From positions 74,501 through 138,500 of the forward strand of contig JAGUCH010000002.1 of assembly GCA_019096065.1 (NCBI GenBank): a stretch of DNA of 64,000 nucleotides. Reading direction: 5' to 3'. A program made the position numbers and the translations under genes. Of the stretch, positions 18,224 to 42,939 are shown piece by piece. The stretch is from Paracyclopina nana. Lineage: Eukaryota; Arthropoda; Copepoda; Cyclopoida; Cyclopettidae. The notes under the pieces are model-generated. The model searched no databases. It had not been told where the DNA came from and saw nothing but the letters and a program-made list of their open reading frames with translations. How positions within the stretch are numbered: position 1 is the stretch's first letter; each line of letters starts with the position of its first letter.

Positions 18224-18932
18224 TGATGGACGACAAGTTCATCATGGCGTTATGATATGGAAATGGGATGACAGAAACAGAAGGAAGAAGAAGATGACTA
18301 TTCAACGCAAAAATATCAACCATAACCTCGCAACCTCCCTGTTGAATTGCATCAGAAATATGGGAAGGAAGATGAAGCTACCTGGTGAAGGGAGGTTAGC
18401 CTTGGGAGGACAAGGCAGGATTGCGAGGTAGAAGGGAGTTCTTCAGGGGACTTCAGAGAAGCAACATGTCAACCTTATAGCTAGAGGTTGACTGGTGTGA
18501 ACTCTGCCAGCAGCTGGAACCTGAAGATCCTCGCCAAGTTTGACGTGTGCAGCACTGAAGAGACAGCCACAGAGAAGAAACTTTATTGTCATATATATTG
18601 TTTTGAGCTCTGATTAGAAGCAGCTGTTATGTTGTGTTGTGCCAGCTAATGAATAGAAAATACCATCAGACCTTAATGAAGTATATTAGTGCTCAACTCA
18701 TAGCGAGGTCCTGATCCCTGGAATGATCAGGGTGAAAGGGCGAGCCTTAACCACTGGTCAACTGTACATAAGCGTGCCGAGAGGTTCCTTGCCAGAAGCT
18801 GTGTACGTGAGGCTGCGGCCTCTGCATAGCGGCTCGTGAGACCTGGCAGCTCCGGTGTTGCGAATGAGTACTGGACTTGGGACCGATGCTTAACCTTCCT
18901 AGGTTCCTGAAGAGAGTACGAATTGTACACCA
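18224..18932 (+). repeat. 5' LTR (709 bp)
   Basis: Starts TGATGGACG and ends GTACACCA. It matches 42231-42939 base for base as far as I can read. It should contain promoter and polyadenylation signals; a TATATATTG stretch lies at about 18591-18599, and I found no clear AATAAA. The short open frame through its first third (to 18431) is repeated in the other LTR and is not called. Confidence 0.95.
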
Positions 18933-18935
18933 TTT

Positions 18936-18953
18936 TGGAGGCCCCGGAGGGAT
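18936..18953 (+). promoter_or_regulatory. Primer-binding site, tRNA-Thr type
   Basis: Three bases after the LTR lies TGGAGGCCCCGGAGGGAT. Its complement fits a tRNA 3' end: CCA, discriminator T, a 7-base acceptor strand CGGGGCC and a T-stem CCCTC. Several animal tRNA-Thr genes end in GGGGCCT plus CCA, so tRNA-Thr is the likely primer (inference from memory). Confidence 0.7.
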
Positions 18954-20219
18954 AGAATGGCCACTCTCTCTCTAGTGGTTTGAAGACCAAAAGAAGTCCT
19001 GGAAAAAGATGGATGGATGCGTCCTGAAGTTACCCATTTGTGGCTGTGAATTGCCGAGGGCGAGGCTGCGATGGTTAGGCGGCACTTTAGTTGCGACTGG
19101 GGTGTGTCAATACTGTAAAAGTCCTGAGGCTGACGAGCCAAGAAGGCCATCCCGGTGGAAGTGTCTATGTGTAGTCTAGCGGTAAATGCAATGAAAAAGG
19201 CACACGTACATTTCGCACCGTTGCCACATTTAGAGGTTGTGCCTAAATAGACTATATCTATGAATGGACGGCCCTAGTTTGTGAAGAAAATTCCATGGAT
19301 CCTAGCCAGACAAAGTTCCTATGTTGTGTGGCTTGGTACTATCATTTCCTAAGGGAGAAGGCCCGTGGGGACGTCCTTGCTTGTCTTAAGCTGGAAAATG
19401 GGAGCCAAGCAGCCGGAAATGGTAGCCGGGTGGTGGCATGCGTGTCATTGCCCCTGTGGGCTTTAATGGGTCAATGGAGCTCAAGATGGGAGCCATTTTG
19501 GAAAGTTGAACCCGTTAGAAGCTGAAGCAGATGGAAGAACGAATAACCTGGAGCGTGTAGGGCGTGCATGGAGCTTGGGGTGGAAGCCACCCTGGAAAGT
19601 GTATGGTGCTCTGGACCAGGGCTCTTCTGGGGCGCAAAGAGTGCGCGCCTGGGCGAGCTTCGTATACCTGTGTGTGTGTGTACCTCTTTCTCTTTCCATT
19701 CACTTTGTTGAGCTTGCTCAGCACAGTGGCGTTCAGGATTGGTAAAAGTGAATGCAACCCTTGTTTTTCAGCTTGTGGGCACTTAGGATTCTGTTGGACA
19801 TCTGGTGCCTAGGTTTGGTAATATCTCTTCTGAGCAAGTGCTCATCTTTATTCTTGTGTGTGTGTGTGTATATTTGTGTGCGTGTGGGTCTTTGGTGAAG
19901 ACTACTTAGGTAAAAGTGGTCCTAATCATTGAAATAAAAACTTGTCATAGTAATTGCAACTTTTTCTCCGAGTCACTTGACCGGCGTAAGTAGGAAGCTA
20001 ACTGTGCTTTGAACAGTATTACGATTAAAAGCTTTAGCTTTTAATTGAGTGCGATTAGAGGCCTAGTGCTTTTAAGTCGTGCGACGTAGCTCTGTACGAA
20101 AAGTTAGCATTTGTGTTAACTTAGTACAAAAACCTAGTTGAGTCTTAGAGATTAACTTCTCTGACGAAACTAAAGGACAAGTTGAGTTAAAGAGAACCTC
20201 TCTTTAGCGAAACGGAAGG
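18954..20219 (+). other. Long untranslated leader of the retroelement
   Basis: 1266 bases between primer site and the gag ATG. GT-rich stretches lie at about 19667-19682 and 19855-19875. Several short ATG frames occur (for example from 19295) but none has recognisable content. Packaging and dimerisation signals would be expected here. Such a long leader with many upstream ATGs suggests splicing or internal initiation before gag. Confidence 0.6.
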
Positions 20220-22706
20220 ATGTCTCGTGATTTGAAAAATGCACTTCGAGTGCACTTGGAAGTCACTGAGATTGCTTTGGGGAAACTGCTGAAACCTTGC
20301 ACTCCTACTGGGGGAAGCAGGGAGGCAGTGAAGGACTTTCTATCGTGGGTCAAGTACCCAACGTCTACTGGTACCTTGAATGTCACCAAGACAGAGGTGG
20401 TAAGGGCATGGAATGCTACACAAATTATTGTCCTAAACACCGAGGAGCCCCTTTCTCTTGATTTGCATATTATGAAAATCATAGAGCAAATGCCCCAGGA
20501 TGATCCTATTAGACAGATTATGGTGGTGGTCAGGTATGTCAATGCAATTGACCCTCCTGATCGCAATTCGGCTACGTGTGCTTTGCTCCTCTATTGTTTT
20601 GGTATGGAGTATTTGAATAAAGCATTCAGGGAGAAGAAAACGATCATTCTTAACAGGTCTACTGATGCTGGTGAAGAGGACTTTGCTAGCCCTAATGAGG
20701 AATTGGAGCCAATAATAACAGCTCTGAGTACCATGATTAATAAAGAGAAACTTACTAACCCAGCAACAGGATTAGATGCTGTTGCTGCTTTGTTTGGATT
20801 ACGGCCTGACTTCTTCTTAGAACCTGATGAGGAAGAAGGACTAGTGATCTCCACTTCGTTTGCAGTGGAGGATCCGCCAAAGGATGCTAATAAAAACAAG
20901 TCATTGGACCTGTCGGCCATCCCCAAGAAGGTTGGGTTCCAAGATGGCCAAAAATCAATCCTCACTTCTACTAAAATGACTTTGAAAGACTTGACTGTCC
21001 TAAATAATTCGGTGGTTCTGCCCCCTGGTAAGGTGGTAGAAACCACAGTAATGAAATTGTTGAAAGGAAAGACCTTGAGTCCATATGACTTGGGTGTGGT
21101 GCGAGCCCATTACACTGCGTTGCATGATGCGAGCACTGCTAATAAAATAATAGCTACTGCCCAAATGACTGCAAAGCACATGTTTGGGGCTGACCCAAAT
21201 GATATTTACGAACGAAACCTTGAACGGGTTTTGAAATTAGCTGATGCTGCGTCCAAAGATTCATTAATACCAGTTGCTGAGTCGGTCTACCATGAAGATG
21301 CTCCACTGGATGAACGGATTGAAGCTATCAATATTAACGAAATAGTGGATGTCGAATCTGCTAGGCGAGTTGTGTTGCAAATGGTGGATCCGGATTTGTC
21401 TCCGGGAAAGAAGGTCATTGAGATGCAAAAGCTATTTCAGGCTTTGCAGACCAGGCCTGAGTTCACCGCATTGCAGCGCAAAATCTTTGTGGAATGTCAC
21501 TTAAAGAGCCCAGAGGTGAGCTATGCGGTTCCCTCGTACTCCGAACATTCGAAAAGTGTGTATGATCCTAAATACAATAAGGATTATATACCTTTGCCTC
21601 CTAATGGGCACCTGAAATTTGCCAATACTAGTGCTCTCAAGGAAATCAGAGCAAAGTACTCTAAGAGGTTCGATATGCAAAGTTCTTCTAATACCGCTGA
21701 TAGTGTGTTAGAATTCTTGCGCACAATAAGTACACTGGCCCACCGGTATGATTGGAGCCATGATGCTATAATTGAAGGTTTATGCGAAGGGGCCACTGCA
21801 AGCACAGCTGAGTACTTCAGAGGTGTGGCAAGTGAAGGCGTAGAGATCCTTTGGAATGACATCTATGCTTACACCAAGAATGTCCAGGAGGTGGATGAGT
21901 TTATAAGAATACATAATATCATCAGGAATCCCACCCAGACTTTTGACCAGTCTGTAAGGGAATTGTATAAACTCAGGTTGCGAATCCATAGAGACTCTAT
22001 GGATGGGGATGGCAAAGCACATGCCATTTCTGAAACAATCACTGATGCGCATGCCCTGCTGAAAAGGCATTGGCCTCAACAATACCAAGGGTATATCAAT
22101 ATATACCATGAGCATTTGTTGAAGCAAGGCACGCCCCTGAGGAGCATGGCTGCTCTATCTGAGATGGTCAAGGTAATTGGGGGCCATGTGGGGACCCACA
22201 TACCGAAAACTGAGCGAGACAGAGGGGCTAGAGATGCTAGACTACCTATGGCCCCAGCTGTTAAACACAAAGCCCATCTTGCTATGGTTGAAGTTGATGA
22301 GGACAATTTGGACAGTGCTAGCATGCTATCAGTGATGTCACATGTTAGCTCAAAGAGTGCCAAAATAATAAGTGCTCTGCATGGTGAGTTGGCTAGAAAG
22401 AATACAGAATTGGAACGCCAAACTGCTGAAGTAGCGGCGTTAAAAGCCGAGACTGAGGCTGAGCGATCTAAAAGAATTGCGGCTACCTTTAATATCGACA
22501 TTAGTAAGCTGCCGGCGGGGAACCCGTTCGAAACAGGTGGATGCCTGTTCTGCAATGGGACCCACTATGCCAAAAGTTGCGAAAACTATCCAGGTGTTTC
22601 ACTGGATGAGTTAAAAAAGGATGGCACTGTGTGTATATCTTGTAAAGGATTACACAAGGTCATAAATGGATTACCGTGCTGGAAGTCGCGACAAGCACGA
22701 AGGTAA
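20220..22706 (+). CDS. gag: Gag-like structural polyprotein (828 aa)
   Basis: An uninterrupted 828-aa frame opens 1.27 kb after the primer site. The bulk is helical and without a match I recognise. A coiled-coil region rich in Glu/Ala/Lys lies at about 715-755. Near the C terminus are two Cys/His clusters (about 775-790 CLFCNGTHYAKSC, and 807-822 CISCKGLHK...PC), i.e. Cys-x2-Cys-x3-His-x4-Cys followed by Cys-x2-Cys, the nucleic-acid-binding signature of a nucleocapsid. Spacing resembles gag knuckles of BEL/Pao elements more than the retroviral CCHC. It is about twice the usual Gag length. The stop (TAA, 22704-22706) overlaps the next gene's ATG. Confidence 0.85.
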   Translation: MSRDLKNALRVHLEVTEIALGKLLKPCTPTGGSREAVKDFLSWVKYPTSTGTLNVTKTEVVRAWNATQIIVLNTEEPLSLDLHIMKIIEQMPQDDPIRQIMVVVRYVNAIDPPDRNSATCALLLYCFGMEYLNKAFREKKTIILNRSTDAGEEDFASPNEELEPIITALSTMINKEKLTNPATGLDAVAALFGLRPDFFLEPDEEEGLVISTSFAVEDPPKDANKNKSLDLSAIPKKVGFQDGQKSILTSTKMTLKDLTVLNNSVVLPPGKVVETTVMKLLKGKTLSPYDLGVVRAHYTALHDASTANKIIATAQMTAKHMFGADPNDIYERNLERVLKLADAASKDSLIPVAESVYHEDAPLDERIEAININEIVDVESARRVVLQMVDPDLSPGKKVIEMQKLFQALQTRPEFTALQRKIFVECHLKSPEVSYAVPSYSEHSKSVYDPKYNKDYIPLPPNGHLKFANTSALKEIRAKYSKRFDMQSSSNTADSVLEFLRTISTLAHRYDWSHDAIIEGLCEGATASTAEYFRGVASEGVEILWNDIYAYTKNVQEVDEFIRIHNIIRNPTQTFDQSVRELYKLRLRIHRDSMDGDGKAHAISETITDAHALLKRHWPQQYQGYINIYHEHLLKQGTPLRSMAALSEMVKVIGGHVGTHIPKTERDRGARDARLPMAPAVKHKAHLAMVEVDEDNLDSASMLSVMSHVSSKSAKIISALHGELARKNTELERQTAEVAALKAETEAERSKRIAATFNIDISKLPAGNPFETGGCLFCNGTHYAKSCENYPGVSLDELKKDGTVCISCKGLHKVINGLPCWKSRQARR

Positions 22707-25700
22707 TGTCTGAAATGGAAGAAGAACCTAAAACAGACACTACACATGATGATTGTTATGTTCTGCCCTCATTCATGCGTGGAGAATGTAACAAAGAAGT
22801 AGGGAGAGTGTATTTTGATCATCTAAAAGCACTCTCAGAAAATAGAAAACATTGCGCAAAGGGGCCTGATGAAAAAACCTCAAGTGCCATTGTTTTGGCC
22901 ATATCTGGTTCTCAGTACATGAATGAGACTAAAGATGGGTTAACCCCACCTAGGATGTGGAAAGGAATATTGTTATGGGTAATTGTGATGCTAGCTTTGG
23001 GGCTGTGGCTGAACAGTTATGACCAAGTCGTGCCTGTAGCGATAGTATACATTATAATAATGGCATGCTTGTGCATGTGCTGGTTTTTTCCAGACACTTC
23101 TCACGAGGATGGTGTACCTGTACATGTGGCGAAGCTAAATGCTGGCTGCATTGAAACTCCGGATGATAAAGTACAGCCAGAAGGGATCATTAAAGATGAT
23201 GACACGCTAAGTGTATTTTCCTTAAAACTACACAATGTGTGTGAAAGGTACTACATACCTGTCCAAATTACAGGCCAGATAAGACTTCATGCCTTATTTG
23301 ACAGTGGAGCAATGGTTCAAATCATATCTCGCACACTAGTAAGGTTAGTTGAAGAAAAATTGGGTTACTCATTACCGCGAGTTCAAACCAATTATCTTAT
23401 TAAGAATTTCAATGGGGAAGAATTTCCCAGCACTGAAGGCGTGGTTCTGCAAGTCGCCTTTAACAATAGAGTACTGATTAGACAAGCAGTGTTCTTAGTC
23501 TCTGACTGTGAGACCCTGCTTATGATTGGGAATTCGTTATTAGTAGATAACAACATACGCTTGACTAGTAGGGATGGAAGTCATTTTATTGATTTCCCAG
23601 GGCGAATAAAATATAAAAAGATTCCCCTAGTCCTTACTAAGGAAGCGTTTTACCCTGTAGCTATAAATGAAAGTATTACTGTGCTACCTGGAAGGGAAGT
23701 GACAGTTAATGCTAGCTTTCCGCATGAGATACCTTTGGTAGCTGAGCCCATTCTTGGTGATTCAGACGCCGAAGTGGACCATGATGAAGTTAAAGTAAAG
23801 CCAGAAAGTAAAAGCGTTTACTCTAGCTTTCATGATAAGTGTTTGGAATTTAGTCCGGATGAGGATTATACCAGCGCTACTGCTGAAGGATGTGTTACTT
23901 CTGTGACCCGGAAGGGCACTTTTCCAGTGCAGATAGGTAATAATTCTGACGAGCCCATTTACATTGAGGCTCATTCTATCATAGGAAAGGCTAATATTGT
24001 TAAGAAACAACGCTATAAGCCTACCCAAATAGTGCATAAGTTAAACCTCAGTTTAAAGTCTTTGAACCATATAGTGGACACTTGCTATTGTGAGTTTATT
24101 GACACGCATATTTTGGTGCAATTTGTTGACATAAATGGATTAGCTTTCACTGACATGCACACCTTTAATGAACAAGTTCACATAAAGGGTAATGTTAAAC
24201 AAAAGCTAACCAGACATTGGAACCATGTTTTCATTGCCTCTAACCAATCTGATGGTTTTGAGGAAATCACTGATGACTTATTGATAGAGTTTGTCAGTAA
24301 ATGGAACTGGAATAGCCTACCATGGGTAGTTGTTGTCCCTAGTGACAAATTATTGTCTGGGGAACAAAAGCGGATTATATTAAAGCTCAACTCTATAGTT
24401 GAAAAACTAAGTGTAGTTTGGGTAAAATACAAAAACGTTCATGATAAATGTAGGACTATAGCTCTCACTCCTATAGAGAATTACCTGGCTGGTATGGAGA
24501 GAGTGGTGCTAACTATCATGGTTCATAGTTATGATTGCTTTCCTGTTGCTTATCAAAGAAATGGAAATGATAAATATTACGAATTCACTATCTTGGGTGC
24601 TCCCACCGTCATGTATAAGATAGCAAATGATATAGAACTAATGATCCATGTGCCTTGCCCCAAATCAAGGGATGTTGGTTACATGGCTACCTTAGTTTAC
24701 AATATATTTGGCCACTTACGTTACAAATGTGTGGCTGATAATATATGGGTGAGAACCTTAATGGATGGTGATGTGTCAGTAGAAGAACCTGTGTGTTTAG
24801 CAGTGTCTTCTGCATTGTTATTACTATCGGGCTTGCCTATGTATCCACATGAATCTACATTTGAGGATATAAAGACAAAGTTTGGTGGTTTTATACCTTT
24901 TGAGTTTAAGCCAGAAAATTGTGCTTGTGCTCTTTGTCTAGCTAACCGTGCTGGGTCTAAGATAGTGTGTAAAAGTTACACTACAATATATGAAGGCCCT
25001 ATAGCTGATCTTTGTGTCAGGCAAACGGTAATTAAAAACCCATCTGAATTGGACCTAGTGTCCGCTTCTTTAGAAATAACGCAAGACGAGGCAAAGAATC
25101 AGAGGCTGTATGAAGAGGTTTATAACCTTTTATTGCAGTTCCCTAGTGAATTTGACCCACATCGAGTTCTAAATGGAGTAGCTGGCTACACCTTTCCATT
25201 GGAACTTGACACCGTCTTAAAGTTTGACCTGGACCACATACCAGTGGAAGTCAGAGAAGACTACAGGAATATATTGATAGAATATAAGGACATCTTCTCT
25301 GATGATCCGAGATCTTTTAGGTTATGGAATGTGGACCCCGTAAAGTTTCAATTGAAGGACAATAAACCCCTGGTACCGAAGGTGTTTAACATGTCTGAAT
25401 ATGAAACCACTCAAGTGGATAGAAAGATATCATTGATGTTATCTTCTGGTCTAATTGAGATAGTAGATAAGTCTTTGAATAGGTACTCTGCTTGTCCTTG
25501 CTTCTTGACATCAAGGCCAAACGATGAAAAGTTACCTATGAAACAACGTAAACCTAGGTTATTAGTGGACCTGACGTCCTTTAATAAGAACCTGATTTTT
25601 ACGCCATCTGAACATATTGTTCCGCCTATTCCTACATTATTAGGGATGCTTTCGAACTCATGTTTGATGTCATCTTTTGATGTCACCTCAGGATATGACA

Positions 25701-30186: not shown

Positions 30187-31734
30187 CCTGATAAAATGAC
30201 CAGAATCTGGTCTTTATTTGGTAGTCGTAAGATGCCACATTTTCATATAGTAAGTACGGTGGCCATGCTTTTTACGAAAACAAACATTACCAGCTAGTAA
30301 CTGGTAATGGAATACTAAAAGTGTAAAGAAAAAGGTTATATTTTGCCTATTGCTTTAACCATAACCGAGTGTGGTCATGCTTTCTAAGTATATACATTTG
30401 TACCATAAAGCACTTATGTATATGGGGAATCGTGATGCACAAAGGCCAAATACTCCCGTGGCAGATGCCAGAAAGTATGGAAATAAAGTGAACAAAATAT
30501 TGCTGCGTCTGATTTAACAAAATCAGTGTGTAGGGTAATATGTCATCACCAGGGAATGGAGCCTCTTATTAGGCCCCTGATACTGTTATAGCTAGTATAC
30601 TAAGAACGTCATGCAAATAAAAATCTGATTTGGCGTAACTTAGGATGCTGGCTTCAGATGTATGATAAAATCTTTCAGAACTTTGCCCCTAGGCAATTGG
30701 AAGTTGCAAGTGGGGTTGATCAAAGTGATCAGTGGGGCGCAGCTTTTATGCCACTCCCACTGATGACATTACTATAAAATTAACGAAGTGCCTGATGCAC
30801 TGTGGCTATGTTCAAATGGAACCCTTGAACAACGCATAGATGCGAATGGTACGATGTGTGGAACTGTTTTCGAGCTTATAACTTGAAAATAACCCGAACA
30901 AAATGTCACGAATGATTACAAATTCGTGTACCTTTTTTACGATTTTTTACTCATCAGTGAAATGCTTAGCCAGCACAATAGCACTGGCGTCAGCGTTACA
31001 ATATTATAAAATATAAGGCATTTATGTCTTGCTACCTTTTAATAGAACACTATTTGTCTCCAAAAGATGATAAGTGAAAACCATTTGCAACCTTTTGGGG
31101 GCAGCTCTGGTGTGACTAGCTCCATACCAGTGTGCGACTGCAAGTGCAAATGGGGTTGATTAAGGTTGATTAAGCAAAAATCTTGCTTCCATTATGGACT
31201 TCAGAGTTGACCGCCTCTTTGATAAAATCTTAATGAGGCGATGTAAGAGTTCAGCATAAAGGATAATTGCTGGAATTCTACGCTTGAGTTCCACGAAGAT
31301 GGTAAACACAAGCTATAAACTAAATGCGAAATGTACGCCACCCTCGGACTGAACCGAACAAGGGCATTCGCATAAGATTACCACTACTATCGGCCACTTG
31401 GCACGTAGTGTAATATAAATAAAATGAATGATAAAATAAGGTGTGTGCTGAACAACTAGGGCACATCAATTCTTAACATCATGGACGAGAAGTATCAGGC
31501 TGCCACCTGATACTTGCATACTATATGGATTTGATAAAAAGAGCAAGAATAAAATAGGGGAGCTCAGTAGCGCCTCTTGGCTACTTCTTCTTGTCCCACG
31601 TACAGCTCTTTCAACTGAGCGTGTACTGTACAATATTGCCAAGCTTCCAGATGGAAAAACAATCTGCTTAAGCTGCAAAAAGACTTTGGCCAACTTGACA
31701 AGTGCCAATCGACATTTCAATATGAATCAAAGAA

Positions 31735-31955
31735 CGGGTCGCCATTCTTTAATCGCAGCGCTGCCCAGCCATGGGTGGGCGTGGGCTAGCGCAATAATAG
31801 CCTACGTTGCATTAAGCAACTTTAAAAATAAAAATTAGAAGACAAAAATGAAGGATGCGACACCCTTGCAAGCGGGTCGCCGTTCTTCATGCACTGCTCT
31901 GCCCGAATTGGGCTAGAGCAAGCGCGATAATAGATTACGTTGCATTAAGCAACTT
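31735..31955 (+). ncRNA. Duplicated RNA hairpin module (two copies, 138 bp apart)
   Basis: Copy A (31735-31822) and copy B (31873-31955) each begin CGGGTCGCC and contain two hairpins. Hairpin 1: GCGCT-GCCCA pairs with TGGGC-T-AGCGC in A (31758-31792); GCTCT-GCCC pairs with GGGC-T-AGAGC in B (31896-31919). Both keep the bulged T, and one pair changes from G-C to T-A on both sides. Hairpin 2: GTTGC-ATTAA-GCAAC in both (31806-31820; 31939-31953). The compensatory change supports a conserved structure. Function is unknown; repeated structured RNAs in retroelements can act in nuclear export. Confidence 0.6.
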
Positions 31956-34289
31956 TAGAAACGTTCATGGCCACAGCGTCCTGTGACCATGTTTATTTAA
32001 AAAATTATTATTATTTTATTAGTACTGAGCAAAAGGATACTTACCTGAAGACTGCCAAGTTTTGGAAGGATTTTCCTCCCAAAACCTGAGCTTCTTGGGT
32101 AGGGGGGGTACCCAGAGCCAGAGCACGCACAAGCCAGAGAGCGAGTGCGCGCTGTCACTAAAAATTCCAAAAAAAAATGGAGGCGTCCTTAAAACAGACG
32201 CGACCACATCTAGTTTGAGGCGGTTTTACCCCTTTGTTAAAGCAAGCTGAAGTCTAGACCGAAACAGCCCAAGAATTCCAAGGGAACAGTCTGCCCTAAA
32301 ACTATAACAATGCACACCAATAGGAAAAACGTAGCGCTTATATTATAACATCCTGGCCCGCGTCAGGGTGCAATTATATAAGGGGTGTGGCGCCACCTAG
32401 AGACCAAGGGGCCCGCGCCCATTTGAAAACGTTTTTGCTAAATTAGCAGATAATTTTGCAAAATAAGCAGACTGCAAACTAAAACATTGTAGTTTTGCTC
32501 GGGAAAAAGATATCCAAAAGCGACTGGATTTGTCAAAATTCTGCCAAATTCTAATAAATGCTGAGTAGCCTTTGCAGAACTTTCCCTACAAGATATGTAC
32601 ACGTATGGAAATTTGAGCATTAAGGTAAACTAAGCTAAAGTTCTTGCTCGGTCAGCTGAACAAGCTTCTATATAAAAAAGCTGACTTATATCAAAAAATC
32701 TGTCTATGATATTTTGGGTGCAGTGACCACTGAAACCATTAGTAAAAGTGTGCTGGCTGCAACGTATGTGACGTAGCCGTAGCCTCCAGGGGGCGCGACT
32801 ATCCCCATATAACTGTGGCAAGGATGATGCATATTTTATGCAACAACCTAGTACCTGAAACAGTACATCATTGGTGCCGTTATGCATGGCTTAATAAGTT
32901 GACCAAGTTGACTAAGTTGACTAAGTTTGGCAAGGAGTTTATAGAAAACATCCGGACTTGATTATGTATTCAAAGATAGATATCATGATGCTTGGTCATG
33001 AATTGAGCTAGAACCTACTGGAAACCATACTTTATTATCTTTTTGTTCCTCGTCTGGTTCTATGGTTTTGCCCTGGGACCAGATTGAGTTGCAAAGGTGA
33101 CTGATGCCGCAGAGTACGCGCCTTATAAAAAGGCCGATAATTGCTCTAGTAGCTCTTGCTTTTCCGTCCTATAACCGAGCTATCTGTACTGGTACTCAGT
33201 CACAAATAAGCGCACAATTTTTATGTGGCCCCATTTTGGGCCTTTAATGATAACTAGACAAAGCTATAAGGTAAAGCTTTACAATGAAAACGATAAACAG
33301 TGAGTGCTCGTTTACCATTACATGGAAACAAATAAATAGTACTCAAACAGGTTATGTGTCTGTGCCTAAAGTTGGCCTTTAGCGAGCCAGAAGTTTTGGG
33401 TTGGATGAGGGACAATGACCCTTCTGAACAGACAATGAACTGCCATGAGTTGAGTAATGGTTATTGCTTGGCAAAAAACATTATTGAACGTCTTCCCCGC
33501 TGTGTGGTTTTGCTAGAAGATGAAAATAATGGCAGACACTGCCCATAAAAAGCAATGGTACGGCAGACAGTAAATGGGTAAAACGTTACAAACGTTGCGG
33601 TTAATAGTACTGAGGGTTGCGCCAGAGGGCGCTCCATGACTCGTTGACTATGCTGCACCTGAAAATTACTGCCTGCCTGCGAAGCGAAACCCGAAATAAT
33701 AGCTTTGCAGGTATGTGATTGGAGCTGTAATACATAGCCTTCTTTACTGTAGCTGCAGGTGGCTTAAAAATGGCTATTCATGCTACAAGTATGAGAATGT
33801 TCAATGTAAATGAGAAAATGGTTTGATGGTTGCTAAACAAAAATGTACGAACAAACCATTACTTTATGACAACTTTGTGCTTGTCTGCTTCTGGGGTTCT
33901 GTCCCCAGGAGTAGGTACCGTGCAGTAGCATTCAGTGGTCTGTCATGTAGCAGTACACTGGAATCTTACTAAAAGCTTCCAGTTAGAAAGCGCTTAATAT
34001 AAGCTTATGGCCATAGGACCACTGTCTGCTAAAGGTCACACAATTTTTGTAGGGCTTCGAGCCCATTATAATGTATTATGTGTGGCCTAAGAACACTTAT
34101 GATGCTTATAAAAAACTTGAAGAAAAAGTCATGTTCTATGAGCAATAATGTTAAGCGTGGAGGCTAGTAAAGCTAGCTGACATGATGCTACTATAATTTT
34201 GCACTTCCTGTAAATCGTTCGATTTTAGGGCTCGACCACTGTGCAAAATGGGGCGATCTGATCTGGAACGTGTTACTGAGGCTCCAGAC

Positions 34290-34397
34290 TTAGCTGAAAA
34301 TAACTTTCTCAGTGAAAGAAGTAAGCTTGCCCACCAACAAAATGATCGCTAAGATAATGGCGATAAAGAATGCGAGATAAGCTGTGTACGCTGGCAT
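34290..34397 (-). CDS. Possible 35-aa membrane microprotein, antisense
   Basis: The C-terminal part of a minus-strand frame (open from about 34583) starts at an ATG at 34397. It encodes a strongly hydrophobic helix (LAFFIAIILAIILLVG) followed by a short polar tail. Small hydrophobic proteins are common viral accessories, but this could be chance. No homology recognised. Confidence 0.25.
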   Translation of the reverse strand: MPAYTAYLAFFIAIILAIILLVGKLTSFTEKVIFS

Positions 34398-35949
34398 TTT
34401 ACTTGCTTGCGCCTTATGAGCATAAAGGTTAGTACAGCAGTGAAGCTCGCTAGATGGTGCCGCTAGCCAAAAGAGTGGCTGGAACGGACAGTAAAGTTTG
34501 CAATATACAAAAGGTGTAGCAAAGGAACTATTTCCATTTGCTTCATCGACAAAATATGACCTAGAGGGATCATGAATGCGCACATGCTTTGTGGATAAGA
34601 ACTACGTAGCACGCTATAACTTGAGAAGTGTGCAAACGAGGAGCATATCGCCACATTGTACGTAAAGAAAATGTGCATCAATAAAGGCATTTAACTTTGT
34701 GACTCTGTTTGTGCTTGGGGTTCTGCCCCCTACAAGCCAAATGAGACGCTGCCGTAATAGTGGCCATAAGCTGAGTAGTTGCCTCTCCACCTCAGGTTAG
34801 ACTCATAAATGAGCTCTTGGCAAATGGCGCTAATTACGCGAAGGCAGTTAATTTCTGTGGGGCTCAAAAGCGAGCCCTATCATTAAAATATAAAATATGA
34901 GGGCAGTGACCTGGAAAGGTTCTGAGAATGCTGATGTGAAAAAGAGCTCATGATAATAACTGATGCCGCTTATGCGCCAATGAGGATGCAAATATCTTCT
35001 TAGCATTCAGCCTAAGAACGAAACGTTGTGAATATAAATTACCCCTGTGTTAGTGCTAGGGGGCGCCACGGGTGGTAATCGTGAATCATAAATTTCACTA
35101 GTAACACCATGCCACTATAGCGTAGAGGCATAAAAGCCAAGGAGCAGTACATTAATGTGGACCTATTATTAATGTGCATTGGGGACCTTTTCGAAGCCTT
35201 GAAAGGCGTCGAGGCTAATATGTACTGCGTCTTTTACCAAAAGAGAAAATAAGACTGATGGAAAGATGGTACCGCAGTGTGTGCTAAACAGACCATATTT
35301 TTGTTCACTTTTTGTTCCTAGTCTCAGCTTGGGTTTTGCCCCTTGCTTGAGCTAAGGTGCGTAAGGCATCTGGGATCAGAAGAATAAAGCGATGCTCCAG
35401 GGGCTAGTCCCTTGGTTTATGGGCTTGAACTTTCTTCTTTTCTCTGCTTATGACACCTGATTTCGGATGCCTCCACGCACCCGTATTTTTGTTGGGCGAT
35501 AGCGCCCCTTAATATAGCTAATATGGAAAGTAATCTGTTCGTCGCACCGTACAGAATTTTATGTGCAAGTGCTGAACCGAGTACGAGAAGGTTATTGTTA
35601 TTACCTGCTCACGTGAGGTGACGAGATAAGACCTTAACCTCTGATTTTCTGCTATGGCTTTCTACCTGTGGAGCTAATTATAATGTGCGTGACGAACGCT
35701 GTAAATGTAGCTTTTCGCTGAGATGCGTGAAAAAGTGCGAATTAGCTATATACGCACATGAGAATATTGTAGTCGGCAAGGCTCAAGTTATGCCATGCTA
35801 ACGTAAATATGATATGATAAGATGAGGCAGGCAAAGCAATTCGGCACTTGAAGAAGCCGTAGTTTTTGCTGAGGCCCAGACGATGATAAGTTGCTCAGCT
35901 CAGAAAACGCGAAATGATTTGCGAAAACTCAGATATCAGAAGTAAGGTG

Positions 35950-36647
35950 GAACTGGCTTTATTGCCTGAAGGGAGGCGAGGCCGGGCCCGGCGGAAGGGT
36001 GGGCCGGGGGTGCGCCCTGTCGCCCCTCCTCGAAACCAGACAGTTCTGCAAAAATAAAAGACAGTGTCAAGGGTGATTTCATTAATCCTGATAAGGACAC
36101 TTACTACACCACGCCCTCGAGGGGGTCCTCGGTCTCGGGGATCCCGAGGAGGCCGAGGACCCAGCGGGTCACCCGGGGGAGCTCCTCTGGCTCGGCCCAG
36201 ACTCGGCTGACGAGCCGATACAGCCCCCGGGGCTTGGCCCGGTTGACCCAGACCAAGCCCGGGAGCACCACCCCATAATAGGTGGCCGCCGCTGCCACGT
36301 TTATGGCGATGCCCTAGAGAATCTCTTCGGCCTGCAATGAAAAGGAAGATCGCTAAAGGGATCTAATCTGTTATGAAAAGAACTTACAACACCATCCCCC
36401 TGGCAGGTTTGGCCTTGAAGGCCCGCCAGCTGGCCTGCGGGCTCCTGGGGCAGCAGGACCGCGGACTCGGCCGCGGCCTGCCCCCCTTCGACGGGAAGGT
36501 GGGCGGGGGCAGCCGTTGCTGCTGCTGCTGCTGTTGTTTGTTCGTTTGACTGTAAAACATAAAAATGTTGTTTTATGTATAAGATTGCACTGGAATTTAA
36601 AGATTTCTGTTTGCACTTACGAAAAAACCGTCCAAAAATGGGGCCAT
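35950..36647 (-). CDS. Spliced antisense gene in a GC-rich island
   Basis: Minus-strand exons 36621-36647 (ATG), 36388-36549, about 36105-36313 and an exon starting at 36045, with good splice signals (GTAAGTGC, GTAAGTTC and GTAAGTGTCC donors; TTTTACAG and TTTTTGCAG acceptors), then AATAAA on that strand (35958-35963). Using the acceptor at 36314 gives 132 aa: Ala/Gln-rich N-terminal part, a hydrophobic stretch (VAAAATYYGVVLPGLVWV) and an Arg-rich C-terminal part. The stronger acceptor at 36332 gives only 68 aa. Codons of exon 3 end almost always in G or C, unlike any neighbour, which points to coding use and to a foreign or captured origin. No family recognised. The alternative frames are also open because the stretch is GC-rich, so the protein is uncertain; the splicing is better supported. 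Confidence 0.5.
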
Positions 36648-36699
36648 CTTGGAAAGAATGCTAACTGTAGCGCTACCAAGTAATTTGTCACTTATATGA

Positions 36700-37031
36700 G
36701 TAAGAAGTTAACCAAAAGTGCCAAAATAAAAGGAACACTTGCATTAGCTCATAAAAGCAGCCCTGACTGCTATGCCGGCATTCTTGGTTGATGTAACTAC
36801 CACACTTGGCGGTATCGAACTTGTGTTATGAATATATGACTATTAGGGCATTAGTGCTTTTATTAGTTTATTGGATCTGTCAATGCTTATGTAAATAAAA
36901 ACAATAACATAGTGCTAAAACAGACCGCATAAAATGAATAATTTCCACCCGAAAAGTTGCACTTGACGAGTGGGATGACTAAGTGTAAGACTATTGGGCC
37001 CCGCGAGGTCTGATGAGGTCGCCATGGATCA
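36700..37031. other. Spacer between the two antisense genes
   Basis: Contains two AATAAA signals read on the minus strand (36859-36864 and 36868-36873), well placed for the 3' end of the Thr-rich antisense gene. Nothing else is seen. Confidence 0.5.
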
Positions 37032-38041
37032 CTAATTGGTGGGCTCTGCTACAGTGCTTGACAATGCGTGGGTGGCCTCGTTTGGTAGTTCTTGGATCAC
37101 TGCCCCAGTGGTCCTCGGGACATTGACGTAGAACTGGCTCTGGTTGCGGCGCCTTTTGTTCCTTCTCCGCTTAGAGCGTTGGCTTTCATCTGTTTGCCCC
37201 TGTAAAAAAAGGCACCTGATGAGGATCTAAGGTACACAAAACGCATGGAGCAGACATCTTCATTGAGCTTTGATCCCATTAAGGAAACGAACAATTACTT
37301 ACTTGTCCCAGTGGCCGCAGCACATCATAGATGGGCTCGTTCAATGAGGGGCGTGAAAAGGTGGTGACATGGTAAGGGGGCGTGCCTCCACGTACCAAGA
37401 TCATGTTATCAAAATTGGACAATGGCAATGAAGGCAACGGTCTCCTACTCATAGTTTCGTAAAGTTCCGGGAAAGAGGGGTTTGCCAATGGCAAGGCCAG
37501 AGGCTCCAGCTCAACCTGGTCAATGACCTCTGCGTTCTCAACGCAGGCTCGGCATAGACAGCACCGCTTGCACCTCTTGTACAGGCGGTACAAGAAGCAT
37601 GTGACCATGATTAGAAGAAGCTACGATGGCGAGGAAAAGTATTAATGACTAGCCTTGCTTAAATTCAATGGTCATAATTGGACTCACCAAAATGATCACT
37701 AGGGCCGCTACCAGGCCAACCCAATCCTGAACGCTGTACTGATCGAATTCGAAGAAACTTCGGGATGACGGTACAGAGGGGTCGATCTCCGCGGTATCCT
37801 TTGGAACAGACTCCATAGAGGTTGCAACCTCAGGGAGAGGACTAGTAGAGGCCGTGGTAACCCTAGTTGGGGGTGCTGCAGTCGCCATTGTTGAAGTTCT
37901 TGTCCAAGACTCGGGCAAGGTCCACCTAGTGGTGGTTGCAAGGGTCTTTGCAGTGGGACGAACTGTCGTTGGCAATGTGCTAGTCATTGCTGTTGTAGTT
38001 GTAGCCGCCGTAGTGGTGGTGGGCAACTGGAGGAAACCCAT
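37032..38041 (-). CDS. Spliced antisense Thr-rich type I membrane protein
   Basis: Exons 37688-38041, 37303-37620 and 37032-37199 join in phase 0 to 279 aa, opposite in strand to all gag/pol genes. Residues 4-75 are Thr/Ser/Pro-rich (mucin-like). A single transmembrane helix spans the first junction (WVGLVAALVIIL then LLLIMVTCF), followed by a Cys/Arg/Lys-rich juxtamembrane segment, a cytoplasmic tail with YETM and YDVL (Yxx-phi type) motifs, and a highly basic segment (KRRRNKRRR). That the splice rejoins one helix strongly supports the model. No signal peptide is seen after the ATG at 38041; a splice acceptor (TTTCCTCCAG, ending 38027) suggests an upstream exon could supply one. AATAAA follows at about 36865. 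Possible accessory glycoprotein; function unknown. Confidence 0.65.
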
Positions 38042-38368
38042 GACTTATGTATATAAACAACTGTAAAGTTGGGCTATTATAAGTTCAAGGGTTGATATGC
38101 TGCTGAAGACTGCGTGAAAGCTGACCAGGGCATTGCCTTTTATGCAAGAGAGCTTGACGTATGTTGCAAGACCGAGACTTGAGCAGTGGAATTTGTTGAC
38201 TCAGCATCTTGGAGACAAGAGCAACGATTTCAGCGGGGAGAAATGATTCACCTCGGCAACGAGAAAATTGCGCACTATAATATGAACGTGCTGGAGAAAT
38301 TATGGTAATAATAACGCTGTGAGGCGCTGTTGGTTACCTGGTTGAGAGCTATAAAAGAAGGGGTGGAA

Positions 38369-39967
38369 ATGAGCAGGTTCCAGTCTATGATGAACACTGC
38401 TGCCGATACCACCCTCCCCAGTCTTGCCAAACTTGGTGAAGCTTTGCCTGAAAACGAGATGGACCCGAAAAAGAACGGTGAAGTCCGAAAGGTTGACATA
38501 GTCATGATCCCGCAACTGGAGGATCATGAACATGAGGCTCTACTTATGGAAGAGGTACCTGAGGGTGTGGCCCCTGGTACCATTGATCAGGATGCATACC
38601 GGGCTAATGCCCAGTTTTGGGACGAAGAAAGTGCTGGATTAGACCAGATGGCGCTCTTTGCTGATACCCAAACTGGTGATGAGGCTGACGAGGCTGAGGG
38701 GCCTCCCTTACTTGTGAGGGGAGGTGAGGCTTCAAGGAAGGACTCTGGTGACCAGGTTATCCACGAGAATGTAGAACATGAAGTTGCTACTGTGACTCGG
38801 GCTCCAAATGCTAGAGTTATGACTGAAAAAATGGATCAGGATGATGAAGGACTAGCACCTACTCACAATGTTGAGGTAGCCCGTGCTGACCCAAGATTGA
38901 TGAGGCCTTGCATAGTTGAGCTCCCCCTTGGGGATGAAGCTGTGAGGCTGAGGTATCCTGTGGCGTATCAGGACTTGATCCGCCCCCCATTTCCGGACAC
39001 CGTCAAGACGTATAACCGTCAAGCAATGGCAGTACGAGAATTGGTCCAGAGGGGCTTTAACGAGGCCATGTTAAAAGTGGCTATCAGTAATACTCCGATG
39101 GTTAGCCGTGAGAGAGCCTTTGATATCACGGTACGCTGCAATGGCGAGGTTCTGGAGCAACCGGACTTCCGCCGCCCATTAAAGGTGTGTAACTTTGAGA
39201 CTTTCGAGTTACAATTGAAGCCAGTTAGCGAGGGAGGACCGCTACCAGATTTTGTGGTGGTCTTCTTGATGTTGGGGACGCTCCCGGTCTTCAATTTGCC
39301 AAAGGAGGCTGCGTTCAATGACACCTATCATCGACGCACTAATGTCAGGGATTGGGCTGCGATTCAAAGTCCCTCTGCACTTAGCTACGCAGTCTACAAT
39401 GTCCAAGGAAGAGACGGTGCCAGGGTACCTGTTGTGGTGTCCAAGCATCTGGCTAAACATGGCGTTGTTCAATTAAAGCCAACTCTGGATAGGTCTTTTG
39501 CCAATGCCAGGCTTTTTATGGATGTGAGCTCACCTTACTTCCAATTGCACGTTGGAACCCCGTCTTGCCTTATGCATGAGGTTGCTCAAGCCCCACGAAG
39601 AATCGATATCAAAGTTGACATGACTGCCATGCTACCTCGCGAGGTAGGCAGGTTTGTGGAAAGAGTAGAGCGCTCTAACCCCCAAGCGATGCGTTTCATC
39701 TCTGGGGCCCGCTCACTGAAGGTAGCCGAAATACAGGATCGGCCACAGAAAAACCGTCGAGGTACCCGCACTTACTTGGAGGCGGCGACTAATCAATCTG
39801 CTGGGGCCATGTCTATTAAACAAGGAGCTCCAAAAGCGAAACGTACCAAGGGCGACAAGGAAAAGGCTCGATTGGGCCAATTAATTGTAGCCAAGATGGA
39901 GACGCTATCATCAACTGACTTGAAGTCCTTTGGAGCGGCGATAAATGAGTTTGTTGACCAATTCTAA
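38369..39967 (+). CDS. Retroelement protein of unknown function (532 aa)
   Basis: An intact sense frame from the ATG at 38369; a longer frame from 38330 lacks an ATG. N-terminal third acidic and disordered-looking (DGDEADEAEG-type composition), middle and C-terminal parts ordered with mixed strands and helices, C-terminal stretch basic (PKAKRTKGDKEKAR), suggesting nucleic-acid or nuclear association. No signal peptide or membrane segment. I recognise no family. Position between integrase and envelope-like genes is where errantiviruses and retroviruses place accessory genes. TATAAAAG lies at 38350-38357, only 12 bases before the ATG. Confidence 0.7.
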   Translation: MSRFQSMMNTAADTTLPSLAKLGEALPENEMDPKKNGEVRKVDIVMIPQLEDHEHEALLMEEVPEGVAPGTIDQDAYRANAQFWDEESAGLDQMALFADTQTGDEADEAEGPPLLVRGGEASRKDSGDQVIHENVEHEVATVTRAPNARVMTEKMDQDDEGLAPTHNVEVARADPRLMRPCIVELPLGDEAVRLRYPVAYQDLIRPPFPDTVKTYNRQAMAVRELVQRGFNEAMLKVAISNTPMVSRERAFDITVRCNGEVLEQPDFRRPLKVCNFETFELQLKPVSEGGPLPDFVVVFLMLGTLPVFNLPKEAAFNDTYHRRTNVRDWAAIQSPSALSYAVYNVQGRDGARVPVVVSKHLAKHGVVQLKPTLDRSFANARLFMDVSSPYFQLHVGTPSCLMHEVAQAPRRIDIKVDMTAMLPREVGRFVERVERSNPQAMRFISGARSLKVAEIQDRPQKNRRGTRTYLEAATNQSAGAMSIKQGAPKAKRTKGDKEKARLGQLIVAKMETLSSTDLKSFGAAINEFVDQF

Positions 39968-40082
39968 ACATATGTATTTTGATTTTGGTGTAGATATGGA
40001 TTATGAGTTTTGATCAACTTGCTAAAGGACCTCGGGTTCTAAGTAGGTTAGACTCGAGATATACGGTATTATAAAGTAAGAT

Positions 40083-42116
40083 ATGGTCTTGTGCGCACCT
40101 GACTATACTAATAAATGTTTGGTGGGGAAGGCTGGCTCGCTTGCCTTACCCGAAACAAGTACCTGTTGTACATATAAGGCGGCGTGGGCCTGGGGCCTAG
40201 TCAGTTTGTGCTTGACATTCGCTGAGTTAATAATGTTGGTGCTTGTGCTTTTGACTTTGTCTGTGCCCATAATCAACGGCCGGGCTGCATCTAATGCACT
40301 ATTAGATGGACCGGTATGTCACAAAGGGCATGCCTTGGTCCCTGTGCGCGTGGTTTATCATCCTAAGCCTGATAAAAAGGCTATGATCATTGACACTGGT
40401 AATTTCCGCCAGCTCCTTGAAAAGACCCGTGACTCGGTGAATATGCTTGAGGATGGGGTGGGACGATTAACGGAGGAGGTTCCTACAACTCAGACTCCCA
40501 CTGATGTAGTGACCTACCAAGATAGAGAATATGTGGGTGTTAAGGCTCTCCCAACGAAATTGGATGAGGAGTGTAAAACACTAGGACTTGATTTTAACTC
40601 GTTTATTCCGGAAAACCAAGTTGACATGGACAGAACATTAGAACTTTTGACTCAAGCAGCAGATTCTAATACTGCGACTACCTTCACGTTTTGCTTGAAG
40701 TTTCGTTTCATTGGGAACTCTCCAGTTTCACTGGATGGACGTGTTCAGTTTGATAGAATTCCATGGAAAGAAGTTCCTAAAGCTTCCATCAAACCTGGGT
40801 TCCCATGCATAACAGGGAAGTTTACTGATAAAAAACTAGTAGAGGCCTCGTCACATCTTTTTGACGGCACAAGCCCAGTGGGAACTATCTGTGTACGTCA
40901 TAAATATGCCATTAATCATAAAGGCCGGATCAGCCATAAATTGTCCAAGGCCAAAAGTATGGTCAACCATGCTTTGACCGCTCTTAATAACCTTGCTGAA
41001 GCTGGTCGCACTACAAAATTTACTGAAGGAATGATGAAGAAAGTCAAACTTCTGGTCATTCCGGATAATATTAGTTTGGCAGTACACATGCTACGAAAGG
41101 TTAGTGACGCATTTGTAAAACTCGGCTACTTGCCCGGAGATTACAAGGAAGTGCTAGCGATGGTGGAACAAATAGTAACCTTTGCTAGAAACATTAGGCA
41201 GGTTGACAAGCGATTCAGTCTGCCCCGAGTTAACATAGCTAGTGATTTGGAGAACCAAGCTGTGACAAATAGTGTGTATGATCCACTAACTAATACTGAA
41301 GTGGTGGGCGATAGTGTATCTCAGGGAATGATGAGTTCCCACAGTCTGGATCCTGAACCTGAAGTGACATTTAAAGTAGTGTCTAGAAGTGTTCATGGAC
41401 AAGTGTTAGCAGACACATTCTTAACAAAATATAAAGATATGGCTTATGTCACTAAGGATCTACCTATTTATGGAGATTGCTATATGCATGATGCCAATGT
41501 CACTGTGTGTGGTAATAAGCATGTTACAATACCATACGGAGCCCAACAGTGTGCCAAGTTATTATTGGGCCTAGCTTTGGGTGACCCTTTTTCCGAGTGT
41601 AACATGGTCCCACTGGCTGATAATACATTGGAAGAAGTGGCTTGCCAGGAGTACAGAGGGTTCCTGAACGTCATCAAGGACACTTCTATAAACAGGACTT
41701 GCTTAAATGACTTTAAGAATTCCATAACTTTAGTGCCTGGCTCGTACCAAGTACTGAGCCATTGCCTGGTCACGATGGGAAGTTATAGTACTGGGTATGA
41801 AGACTCCCCATGGGAAAGTGACATTTTGAAGTTCTTTACAAAGTTTCCAGAGGAAGAGCCATTGGGTTTGTTTGACCATTGGAAAATCATACTAATTATA
41901 AGCACACTTTCAGGCTTTATTATAATTTTGTTAGTCTGCATCCTAGTGTGGAAACGTCGGGCACTAATCCGCAGATGCTGTGGAGAGCCTGATTATGTTG
42001 AACCAAGAACTGGGCGCCGGCGGGTTAATGCCAGGCGCCTTGACAATGAAAAGGACCCCATGGAAATGGGACTGATGGGTGCAAAAAACAAACTTGGAGC
42101 TGCTACGTTAGTATAA
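40083..42116 (+). CDS. Envelope-like membrane glycoprotein (677 aa)
   Basis: Intact frame with a hydrophobic N-terminal segment (about residues 34-65, signal or signal-anchor), an extracellular region of over 500 residues with several N-glycosylation sites (NVT, NRT, NIS) and paired Cys in its last third, one transmembrane helix (about 602-626; ILIISTLSGFIIILLVCILVW) and a basic cytoplasmic tail. This type I fusion-protein layout and the place just before the 3' LTR match retroviral or errantiviral Env genes. I see no obvious furin site and do not recognise the class, so the receptor-binding and fusion roles are inferred from topology only. Confidence 0.72.
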   Translation: MVLCAPDYTNKCLVGKAGSLALPETSTCCTYKAAWAWGLVSLCLTFAELIMLVLVLLTLSVPIINGRAASNALLDGPVCHKGHALVPVRVVYHPKPDKKAMIIDTGNFRQLLEKTRDSVNMLEDGVGRLTEEVPTTQTPTDVVTYQDREYVGVKALPTKLDEECKTLGLDFNSFIPENQVDMDRTLELLTQAADSNTATTFTFCLKFRFIGNSPVSLDGRVQFDRIPWKEVPKASIKPGFPCITGKFTDKKLVEASSHLFDGTSPVGTICVRHKYAINHKGRISHKLSKAKSMVNHALTALNNLAEAGRTTKFTEGMMKKVKLLVIPDNISLAVHMLRKVSDAFVKLGYLPGDYKEVLAMVEQIVTFARNIRQVDKRFSLPRVNIASDLENQAVTNSVYDPLTNTEVVGDSVSQGMMSSHSLDPEPEVTFKVVSRSVHGQVLADTFLTKYKDMAYVTKDLPIYGDCYMHDANVTVCGNKHVTIPYGAQQCAKLLLGLALGDPFSECNMVPLADNTLEEVACQEYRGFLNVIKDTSINRTCLNDFKNSITLVPGSYQVLSHCLVTMGSYSTGYEDSPWESDILKFFTKFPEEEPLGLFDHWKIILIISTLSGFIIILLVCILVWKRRALIRRCCGEPDYVEPRTGRRRVNARRLDNEKDPMEMGLMGAKNKLGAATLV

Positions 42117-42210
42117 AGCTAAAGTTTTGTTGTATCACTTATCATTTACTATTGAGCAATCTAGTCACCTTTTTTCATATTTTAGTTCATAAAATGATGA
42201 CAAAAGCTGA

Positions 42211-42230
42211 AAAAGTTTGGGCCGGGGTAA
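42211..42230 (+). promoter_or_regulatory. Possible polypurine tract before the 3' LTR
   Basis: The bases before the 3' LTR (AAAAGTTTGGGCCGGGGTAA) include G-rich runs broken by TTT and CC. Plus-strand priming should occur here, but the tract is poor, so the exact primer is uncertain. Confidence 0.35.
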
Positions 42231-42939
42231 TGATGGACGACAAGTTCATCATGGCGTTATGATATGGAAATGGGATGACAGAAACAGAAGGAAGAAGAAG
42301 ATGACTATTCAACGCAAAAATATCAACCATAACCTCGCAACCTCCCTGTTGAATTGCATCAGAAATATGGGAAGGAAGATGAAGCTACCTGGTGAAGGGA
42401 GGTTAGCCTTGGGAGGACAAGGCAGGATTGCGAGGTAGAAGGGAGTTCTTCAGGGGACTTCAGAGAAGCAACATGTCAACCTTATAGCTAGAGGTTGACT
42501 GGTGTGAACTCTGCCAGCAGCTGGAACCTGAAGATCCTCGCCAAGTTTGACGTGTGCAGCACTGAAGAGACAGCCACAGAGAAGAAACTTTATTGTCATA
42601 TATATTGTTTTGAGCTCTGATTAGAAGCAGCTGTTATGTTGTGTTGTGCCAGCTAATGAATAGAAAATACCATCAGACCTTAATGAAGTATATTAGTGCT
42701 CAACTCATAGCGAGGTCCTGATCCCTGGAATGATCAGGGTGAAAGGGCGAGCCTTAACCACTGGTCAACTGTACATAAGCGTGCCGAGAGGTTCCTTGCC
42801 AGAAGCTGTGTACGTGAGGCTGCGGCCTCTGCATAGCGGCTCGTGAGACCTGGCAGCTCCGGTGTTGCGAATGAGTACTGGACTTGGGACCGATGCTTAA
42901 CCTTCCTAGGTTCCTGAAGAGAGTACGAATTGTACACCA
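42231..42939 (+). repeat. 3' LTR (709 bp)
   Basis: Same length and, read side by side, same sequence as 18224-18932. It ends GTACACCA, followed by the right-hand target duplication CCAA (42940-42943). Confidence 0.95.

Follow-up and report, generated by a model that had tools for sequence, protein, structure and literature searches.

Ty3/Gypsy elements (Metaviridae), including the errantiviruses, are ordinarily about 5–10 kb in length, and the errantivirus env is homologous to the baculovirus F-type fusion protein. Here we describe a Ty3/Gypsy-like element of 24.7 kb that occupies positions 18224–42939 of a 64,000-nucleotide window (the whole stretch of DNA analysed) of the copepod Paracyclopina nana genome (assembly GCA_019096065.1, contig JAGUCH010000002.1, positions 74,501 to 138,500). 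It resembles the Metaviridae in its protease-reverse transcriptase (RT)-RNase H-integrase order, in an RT nearest to Ty3 among solved structures, and in possessing a tRNA primer site and a third, env-like gene. In contrast, it is 24 kb rather than 5–10 kb long, and the nearest RT found is at most 27% identical. It also contains two spliced antisense genes (AS1 and AS2), an extra open reading frame (ORF4), a candidate internal promoter, and a Pol that has a start of its own and is predicted to form a membrane hairpin. Unlike errantivirus env, neither the env-like protein (P0005) nor its profile has a Pfam match or a credible PDB match, although a distant fold could escape sequence tools.

Foamy viruses (spumaviruses) have a separate Pol product, an internal promoter and a spliced pol mRNA. 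The element may be similar in its proposed separate Pol and in a candidate internal promoter, for which a TATA-containing block is suggestive. However, Ty3 is nearer to the window RT than are the structure entries we take to be foamy virus, and we know of no such antisense genes or Pol hairpin in foamy viruses. BEL/Pao elements (Belpaoviridae) carry Peptidase_A17 or related domains, none of which was detected in a Pfam scan of the window proteins.

Burro, a giant Gypsy-like element of planarians proposed to be a provirus, has an internal region of up to 25 kb and, like the window element, an env-like region (PMC6431247). In Burro, env lies between gag and pol, and the single polyprotein, about 4,900 amino acids long, bears motifs of the MATH, BIR, ankyrin and BCL2-like kinds (PMC6431247). 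In contrast, no MATH, BIR, ankyrin or BCL2 domain was found by Pfam in the window proteins P0001–P0006. The plant Gypsy lineage Retand shares with the window element a long region between pol and the 3′ long terminal repeat (LTR) that carries antisense ORFs; these mostly contain a TRP28 domain, which is predicted to be DNA-binding, and no env is seen in the available description (PMC11963269). Here, TRP28 (PF04195) gave no match up to E 1 in the four antisense exons scanned (AS1 exons 1 and 2, AS2 exons b and c), the antisense genes are predicted to encode membrane helices, and the element has an env-like gene. The LTR elements of bdelloid rotifers are also animal elements with captured third ORFs, either env-like, DEDDy or GDSL; the available text uses the word antisense once, with respect to small RNAs (PMC5408684). 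Troyka, as described, is a deep animal lineage likewise near Gypsy, but with CG..CG termini and 3-bp duplications in place of TG..CA and 4 bp here (PMC12440569). Going by its description, Odin (PMC9040795) is set apart from the window element by size, the antisense spliced membrane genes, the predicted Pol hairpin, the candidate promoter and the structural proteins without matches.

Within the terms used, no element of this type was recognised by title or abstract in the open-licence literature. The combination of giant size, an env-like gene, two antisense spliced genes and a possibly membrane-anchored polymerase is unseen in the families compared, and we read this giant endogenous retrovirus-like Ty3/Gypsy lineage as apparently new.

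Structure of the element and its copies

We consider it likely that the window contains an endogenous retrovirus-like Ty3/Gypsy element of giant size (24.7 kb), that several young lineages of such elements exist within this one genome, and that their expression and recombination follow the model proposed below. The two LTRs are identical at 709/709 positions in a pairwise comparison, with TG..CA termini. An initial annotation had described the LTRs as apparently identical, flanked by CCAA duplications and followed by a primer site, and had listed five long intact sense frames and two spliced antisense genes. All of these were recovered (Table 1), with the start of the env-like frame corrected to a probable Met51. 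From left to right, the element holds gag, pol, integrase-X, 5.8 kb of apparently non-coding DNA, the two spliced genes of the antisense strand, then ORF4 and, last, the env-like gene. By its RT, gene order and termini, the element is classified as Ty3/Gypsy-type.

Table 1 Features of the element, in window coordinates
Feature	Position	Strand	Remarks
5′ target-site duplication CCAA	18220..18223	.	perfect 4-bp duplication
5′ LTR, TGATGG..ACACCA, 709 bp	18224..18932	+	709/709 match to 3′ LTR
Primer-binding site, 18 nt	18936..18953	+	complement of tRNA-Thr(AGT) 3′ end, CCA assumed
gag-like ORF, 828 amino acids	20220..22706	+	two C-terminal Cys/His knuckle-like motifs (by eye)
pol ORF, 1564 amino acids	22706..27400	+	protease (DSGA, by eye), RT and RNase H, preceded by two predicted membrane helices at residues 84-132
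Integrase (rve) and charged C-terminal region X, 929 amino acids	27397..30186	+	ATGA overlap with pol
Apparently non-coding middle, 5.8 kb	30187..35950	.	no consistent coding signal
AS2 candidate poly(A) signal AATAAA	35958..35963	-	
AS2 exon c	36105..36331	-	two possible acceptors (exon start 36331 or 36313), in-frame TAG between; weakly hydrophobic helix
AS2 exon b	36388..36549	-	Ala-rich
AS2 exon a	36621..36647	-	start codon, 9 codons (27 nt)
AS1 exon 3	37032..37199	-	basic tail, stop; splice sites from window copy only
AS1 exon 2	37303..37620	-	second half of membrane helix, Cys-rich stretch, Tyr and Pro motifs (by eye)
AS1 exon 1	37688..38041	-	Thr/Ser/Pro-rich, first half of membrane helix
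Conserved non-coding block	38293..38357	+	ends in TATAAAAG (38350-38357); possible internal promoter, lying where AS1 and ORF4 diverge
ORF4, 532 amino acids	38369..39967	+	no relative found; true start may be Met8 (38390)
env-like membrane protein ORF, 677-amino-acid frame	40083..42116	+	likely start Met51 at 40233; C-terminal membrane helix residues 597-630 of P0005
Purine-rich stretch preceding 3′ LTR, polypurine-tract candidate	42214..42227	+	similar stretch in 6/6 family B copies
3′ LTR	42231..42939	+	identical to 5′ LTR
3′ target-site duplication CCAA	42940..42943	.	perfect 4-bp duplication

The primer site begins 3 bases past the 5′ LTR and reads TGGAGGCCCCGGAGGGAT. CCA is usually added to the 3′ end of a tRNA; assuming this addition, the complement of the site corresponds over 18 nt to the 3′ end of a tRNA-Thr(AGT) gene from the same genome. 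A 14-base part of the primer site occurs 74 times in the genome (control 0), one occurrence being the tRNA-Thr(AGT) gene. Six other sites were sampled, none of which contains a tRNA gene by ARAGORN; all six read as an LTR end followed by a primer site.

A search of the genome (92 Mb in 10 contigs) returned at least 47 matches to the LTR; the LTR-pair counts given here leave out three pairs of a group termed A73, three single LTRs (L059-L061) and fragments, all from this search. The family of the window element (family A) was found to comprise 12 verified full-length copies for which both LTRs were compared. LTR pairs differ at 0 sites in nine of these, at 1 site in two and at 2 sites in one, in keeping with the young age initially proposed, and perfect 4-bp duplications flank all 12. 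For a sister family (B), a search with the sequence surrounding the 3′ LTR found at least 41 matches (40 of 140 candidates scored). Pairing by hand placed 36 of the 41 into 18 pairs, leaving five unpaired; the spacing is 22.0–22.6 kb in 15/18 pairs and 28.1, 29.1 and 48.1 kb in the other three. In the six B copies compared, the 918-bp LTR pairs are identical and 4-bp duplications are present (6/6). Hence, TG..CA LTRs with a target duplication inside the 4–6 bp range of Ty3/Gypsy elements are found in 12/12 A and 6/6 B copies. Family B has the same gene order as family A, with 40–46% identity in ORF4. The A73 group contains three copies with a full ORF4 (72–73% identity), and in all three the env-like frame has stops or gaps.

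Synonymous divergence (dS) of ORF4 between A copies is 0.24–0.28, although their LTR pairs differ at only 0–2 sites, indicating recent insertion from a diverse pool. We infer that the element may be mobile at present. In addition, two A-type LTR pieces in opposite orientation lie about 8 kb apart on contig C9 (C9:898495-907360).

Gag, pol and integrase

The gag-like protein has no Pfam match. Pfam analysis of pol gave RVT_1 above its cut-off (5e-9), with RNase H (one region matched) and weak retroviral-type protease models below theirs; the frame after pol gave integrase above cut-off (3e-8). The resulting protease-RT-RNase H-integrase order agrees with Ty3/Gypsy (Metaviridae). When compared to solved structures, the RT matches the Ty3-G Gag-Pol first (1.5e-22), with the next groups, going by their PDB codes presumably cauliflower mosaic virus, foamy virus and murine leukaemia virus, at 1e-11 or weaker. 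The nearest relatives in a database of 5.8 billion proteins are 22 RT-bearing polyproteins with 19–27% identity, among which the two named animal entries are called Ty3-G and 297. In a tree built with these 22 database hits and no retroviral rows, the window RT forms a long branch that groups with modest support (91/92) with the likewise long P0026, without firm placement. The RT is, on these comparisons, Ty3/Gypsy-like but divergent.

The gag stop and the pol start have one base in common (TAATG), as also seen in the family B copy read. The downstream frame boundaries differ between the families: A has pol / integrase-X, while the one B copy read has pol-integrase / X, with X in another frame. 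Residues 1–130 of Pol hold two predicted hydrophobic helices ahead of the protease in both families (one sequence each), with hydrophobicity scores of 2.02 and 2.62 in A, and 2.18 and 1.69 in B.

ORF4 and the env-like gene

The initial annotation recognised nothing in the gene set beyond gag and pol, and our searches led to the same result. No match to ORF4 was found among the 7,997 best word-sharing candidates of the protein database, nor to the env-like protein among 7,995, and neither protein has a match in Pfam. Sequence and profile searches of PDB gave nothing credible for either protein; the best profile match for both against PDB and Pfam was an archaeal RNA-polymerase subunit (E 0.026), which is not credible. 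Within the genome, ORF4 has at least 82 matches (81 of 107 candidates scored), among them 33 rows that belong to family B and keep a 458-codon frame undisturbed. The ratio of nonsynonymous to synonymous divergence (dN/dS) is 0.075–0.108 in three A comparisons, 0.084 within B and 0.09 versus A73 (where dS is saturated at 1.9). Judged by these ratios, ORF4 is under purifying selection.

The env-like protein combines a signal-like N-terminal helix with a C-terminal membrane helix, and is predicted to be a type I membrane protein. Met51 is its probable start, because 4/4 other A copies read at this point carry a stop about 15 codons upstream. Identity between the A and B proteins is 45%, and at least 68 env-like matches are present in the genome (66 of 129 candidates scored), 34 of which belong to family B and keep a 637-codon frame undisturbed.

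The antisense genes and a candidate internal promoter

The three exons of AS1 encode a product of 279 amino acids, with Thr, Ser or Pro making up half of the first 100 residues. A predicted membrane helix (score 3.31) spans the first exon junction in the window copy, and AS1 is predicted to be a mucin-like membrane protein. The first donor is present in 17/17 copies of A, A73 and B examined, and the acceptor, by pattern, in 14/17. The ratio of nonsynonymous to synonymous differences per site (pN/pS) is 0.24–0.51 in divergent pairs (pS 0.43–0.84) and ranges from 0.12 to 1.57 in close pairs, which have few changes. Comparison of AS1 with ORF4 reveals discordance in both directions. The copies at C2:13.51M and C2:14.86M are close in ORF4 (pS 0.075) and distant in AS1 (pS 0.73 and 0.51 for exons 1 and 2), while the window copy and C4:0.84M are nearly the same in AS1 (pS 0.03 and 0.01) with an ORF4 pS of 0.21. 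This shuffling of AS1 alleles against ORF4 reflects recombination between lineages.

AS2 exons a, b and c are recognisable in 13/13 copies examined. A comparison of the exon c antisense frame between the window and B gives a pN/pS of 0.30, with 14/5/30 substitutions by codon position (p = 5e-5). The 18 bases between the two possible acceptors (36314–36331) finish in an in-frame TAG in 13/13 copies. Use of the first acceptor (36331) would lead to a 68-amino-acid protein without a helix, and use of the second (36313) to one of 132 amino acids with a weak membrane helix. It is possible that the TAG marks a tandem-acceptor switch or, alternatively, stop read-through. The GT..AG introns conserved between families and the bias in codon position, reflecting codon-level selection, support both antisense genes as initially proposed.

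AS1 and ORF4 diverge from a 327-bp gap. Within it, a block ending in TATAAA (38293–38355) is identical at 62/63 positions between the window and an A73 copy, despite saturated ORF4 synonymous sites (dS 1.9), and TATAAA precedes ORF4 in 8/8 A and A73 copies aligned. This block with its TATA box suggests an internal promoter. Transcription is expected to start 25–30 bases past a TATA box, which here would fall immediately before Met8; the A73 ORF4 frames begin at Met8.

Proposed model and alternative explanations

In the proposed model, genomic RNA would begin in the 5′ LTR, and Pol would be produced as a separate protein through stop-start re-initiation at TAATG. The N-terminal membrane hairpin may anchor Pol, and budding particles could in this way acquire Pol with no need of a Gag-Pol fusion. 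From a divergent internal promoter near 38.04–38.37 kb, ORF4 and env would be transcribed to the right, with AS1 and AS2 transcribed to the left. The env-like protein would serve cell entry or cell-to-cell spread, while AS1 would act as a mucin-like surface protein whose divergent alleles spread through recombination, probably by template switching. AS2 may yield a membrane form and a short soluble form via tandem splice acceptors or stop read-through.

Several observations weigh against this model. TATAAA is present in 0/3 B copies aligned, where just a TTTAAAA-like stretch can be seen by eye. The Pol hairpin is predicted from hydrophobicity in two sequences, and the same scan flags stretches within RNase H, integrase and ORF4 (1.68–1.83), so that the second B Pol helix (1.69) is not outstanding. 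The AS2 helix is itself weak (1.61), exon c shows a weak signal between the window and a decayed A73 copy (pN/pS 0.56), and both A73 copies compared have one in-frame stop in this exon. The env-like protein matches no known fusion protein, although sequence tools could miss a distant fold, and single-sequence structure models of ORF4 and the env-like protein failed, with mean predicted local distance difference test scores of 36 and 38. Finally, the env-like frame is split or stopped in the A copies at C4:5.40M, C7:7.09M and C1:8.55M, all with identical LTR pairs. Hence, env is not required for every recent insertion and may be dispensable for some. The first of these copies (L002) has LTRs identical to those of the window, yet its env-like frame is broken by several stops.

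These disrupted frames favour an intracellular giant LTR retrotransposon that has acquired extra genes, with the env-like and antisense membrane proteins acting inside the cell or as passengers and no infectious stage. Furthermore, the few peptide patterns used found no relatives in viral contigs. This explanation has to contend with the selection on ORF4 and on the antisense genes, with the 34 of 68 env-like rows that are undisturbed family B frames, and with the shuffling of AS1 alleles; we regard it as a genuine but rather doubtful possibility. The initial proposal of a virus-like lineage is supported by the env-like type I membrane protein, the purifying selection on ORF4 (dN/dS about 0.1) and the gene shuffling between lineages. 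The boldest reading of the data is a new family of enveloped invertebrate retroviruses with ambisense-like bidirectional genes, a 24-kb genome, an internal divergent promoter, a membrane-anchored Pol without Gag-Pol fusion, and an antisense mucin-like surface protein present as serotype-like alleles exchanged among co-circulating lineages. We put this forward tentatively, as a reading that is plausible and yet falls somewhat short of an even chance.

The introns and poly(A) signals of the antisense genes are host-gene-like, and could indicate captured host genes hitch-hiking in the element. This appears unlikely given that AS1 and AS2 are located at the same place in families with ORF4 only 40–46% identical, and that Pfam, at E values up to 1, gave no match to any of the four antisense exons scanned individually.

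The unusual length and the fast-evolving middle, which is poorly conserved in other lineages, might suggest that foreign DNA at 30–38 kb interrupts what is otherwise a normal element of 10 kb, or a mis-assembly, but this is so improbable as to be negligible and is ruled out by other copies: LTR spacing, start to start, is 23.9–24.1 kb in 10/12 A copies distributed over several contigs, the remaining two having spacings of 23.1 kb and 36.5 kb (the latter may hold its own insertion), the order of genes is the same in B, and the region from 30.1 to 36.0 kb is collinear, at 94% identity, with C3:6.24M, the single further A copy read there. A nested middle, like numerous LTR differences, had been named at the outset as grounds for rejecting the element, and neither was observed. 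The comparison with C3:6.24M revealed no consistent 3-base periodicity in the middle (one copy, without a significance test); the middle belongs to the element and is probably non-coding. The copy with the 36.5-kb spacing (C2:14859501-14896732) probably contains a further insertion.

If the proposed model is correct, animal LTR elements reach a larger size and hold a wider range of genes than was known, and a retroelement makes use of both strands to encode spliced genes for membrane proteins, with alleles shuffled in the manner of viral surface antigens. The presence of many copies with identical LTR pairs in one small genome makes RNA packaging, Pol delivery and use of the env-like gene by giant retroelements directly testable.

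Surroundings of the element

Upstream of the element, the window contains a host gene (9809–14269) with repeated DB modules, fibronectin type III domains and a terminal membrane helix (by eye). HECT and NAP domains were detected as well; DB modules are a nematode or ecdysozoan feature. The SL1 pattern, with one mismatch allowed, was not found, and searches for the spliced-leader RNA family and for nematode TTR-like genes returned nothing, as did their controls. Arrays of a roughly 54-bp repeat are located directly downstream of the element (43285–45244), followed on the reverse strand by a tRNA-Arg (CCT) gene of 91 bases with a possible intron (52472–52562). A 180-bp satellite (3.3 copies, 98% match) is found at the window edge (1–597).

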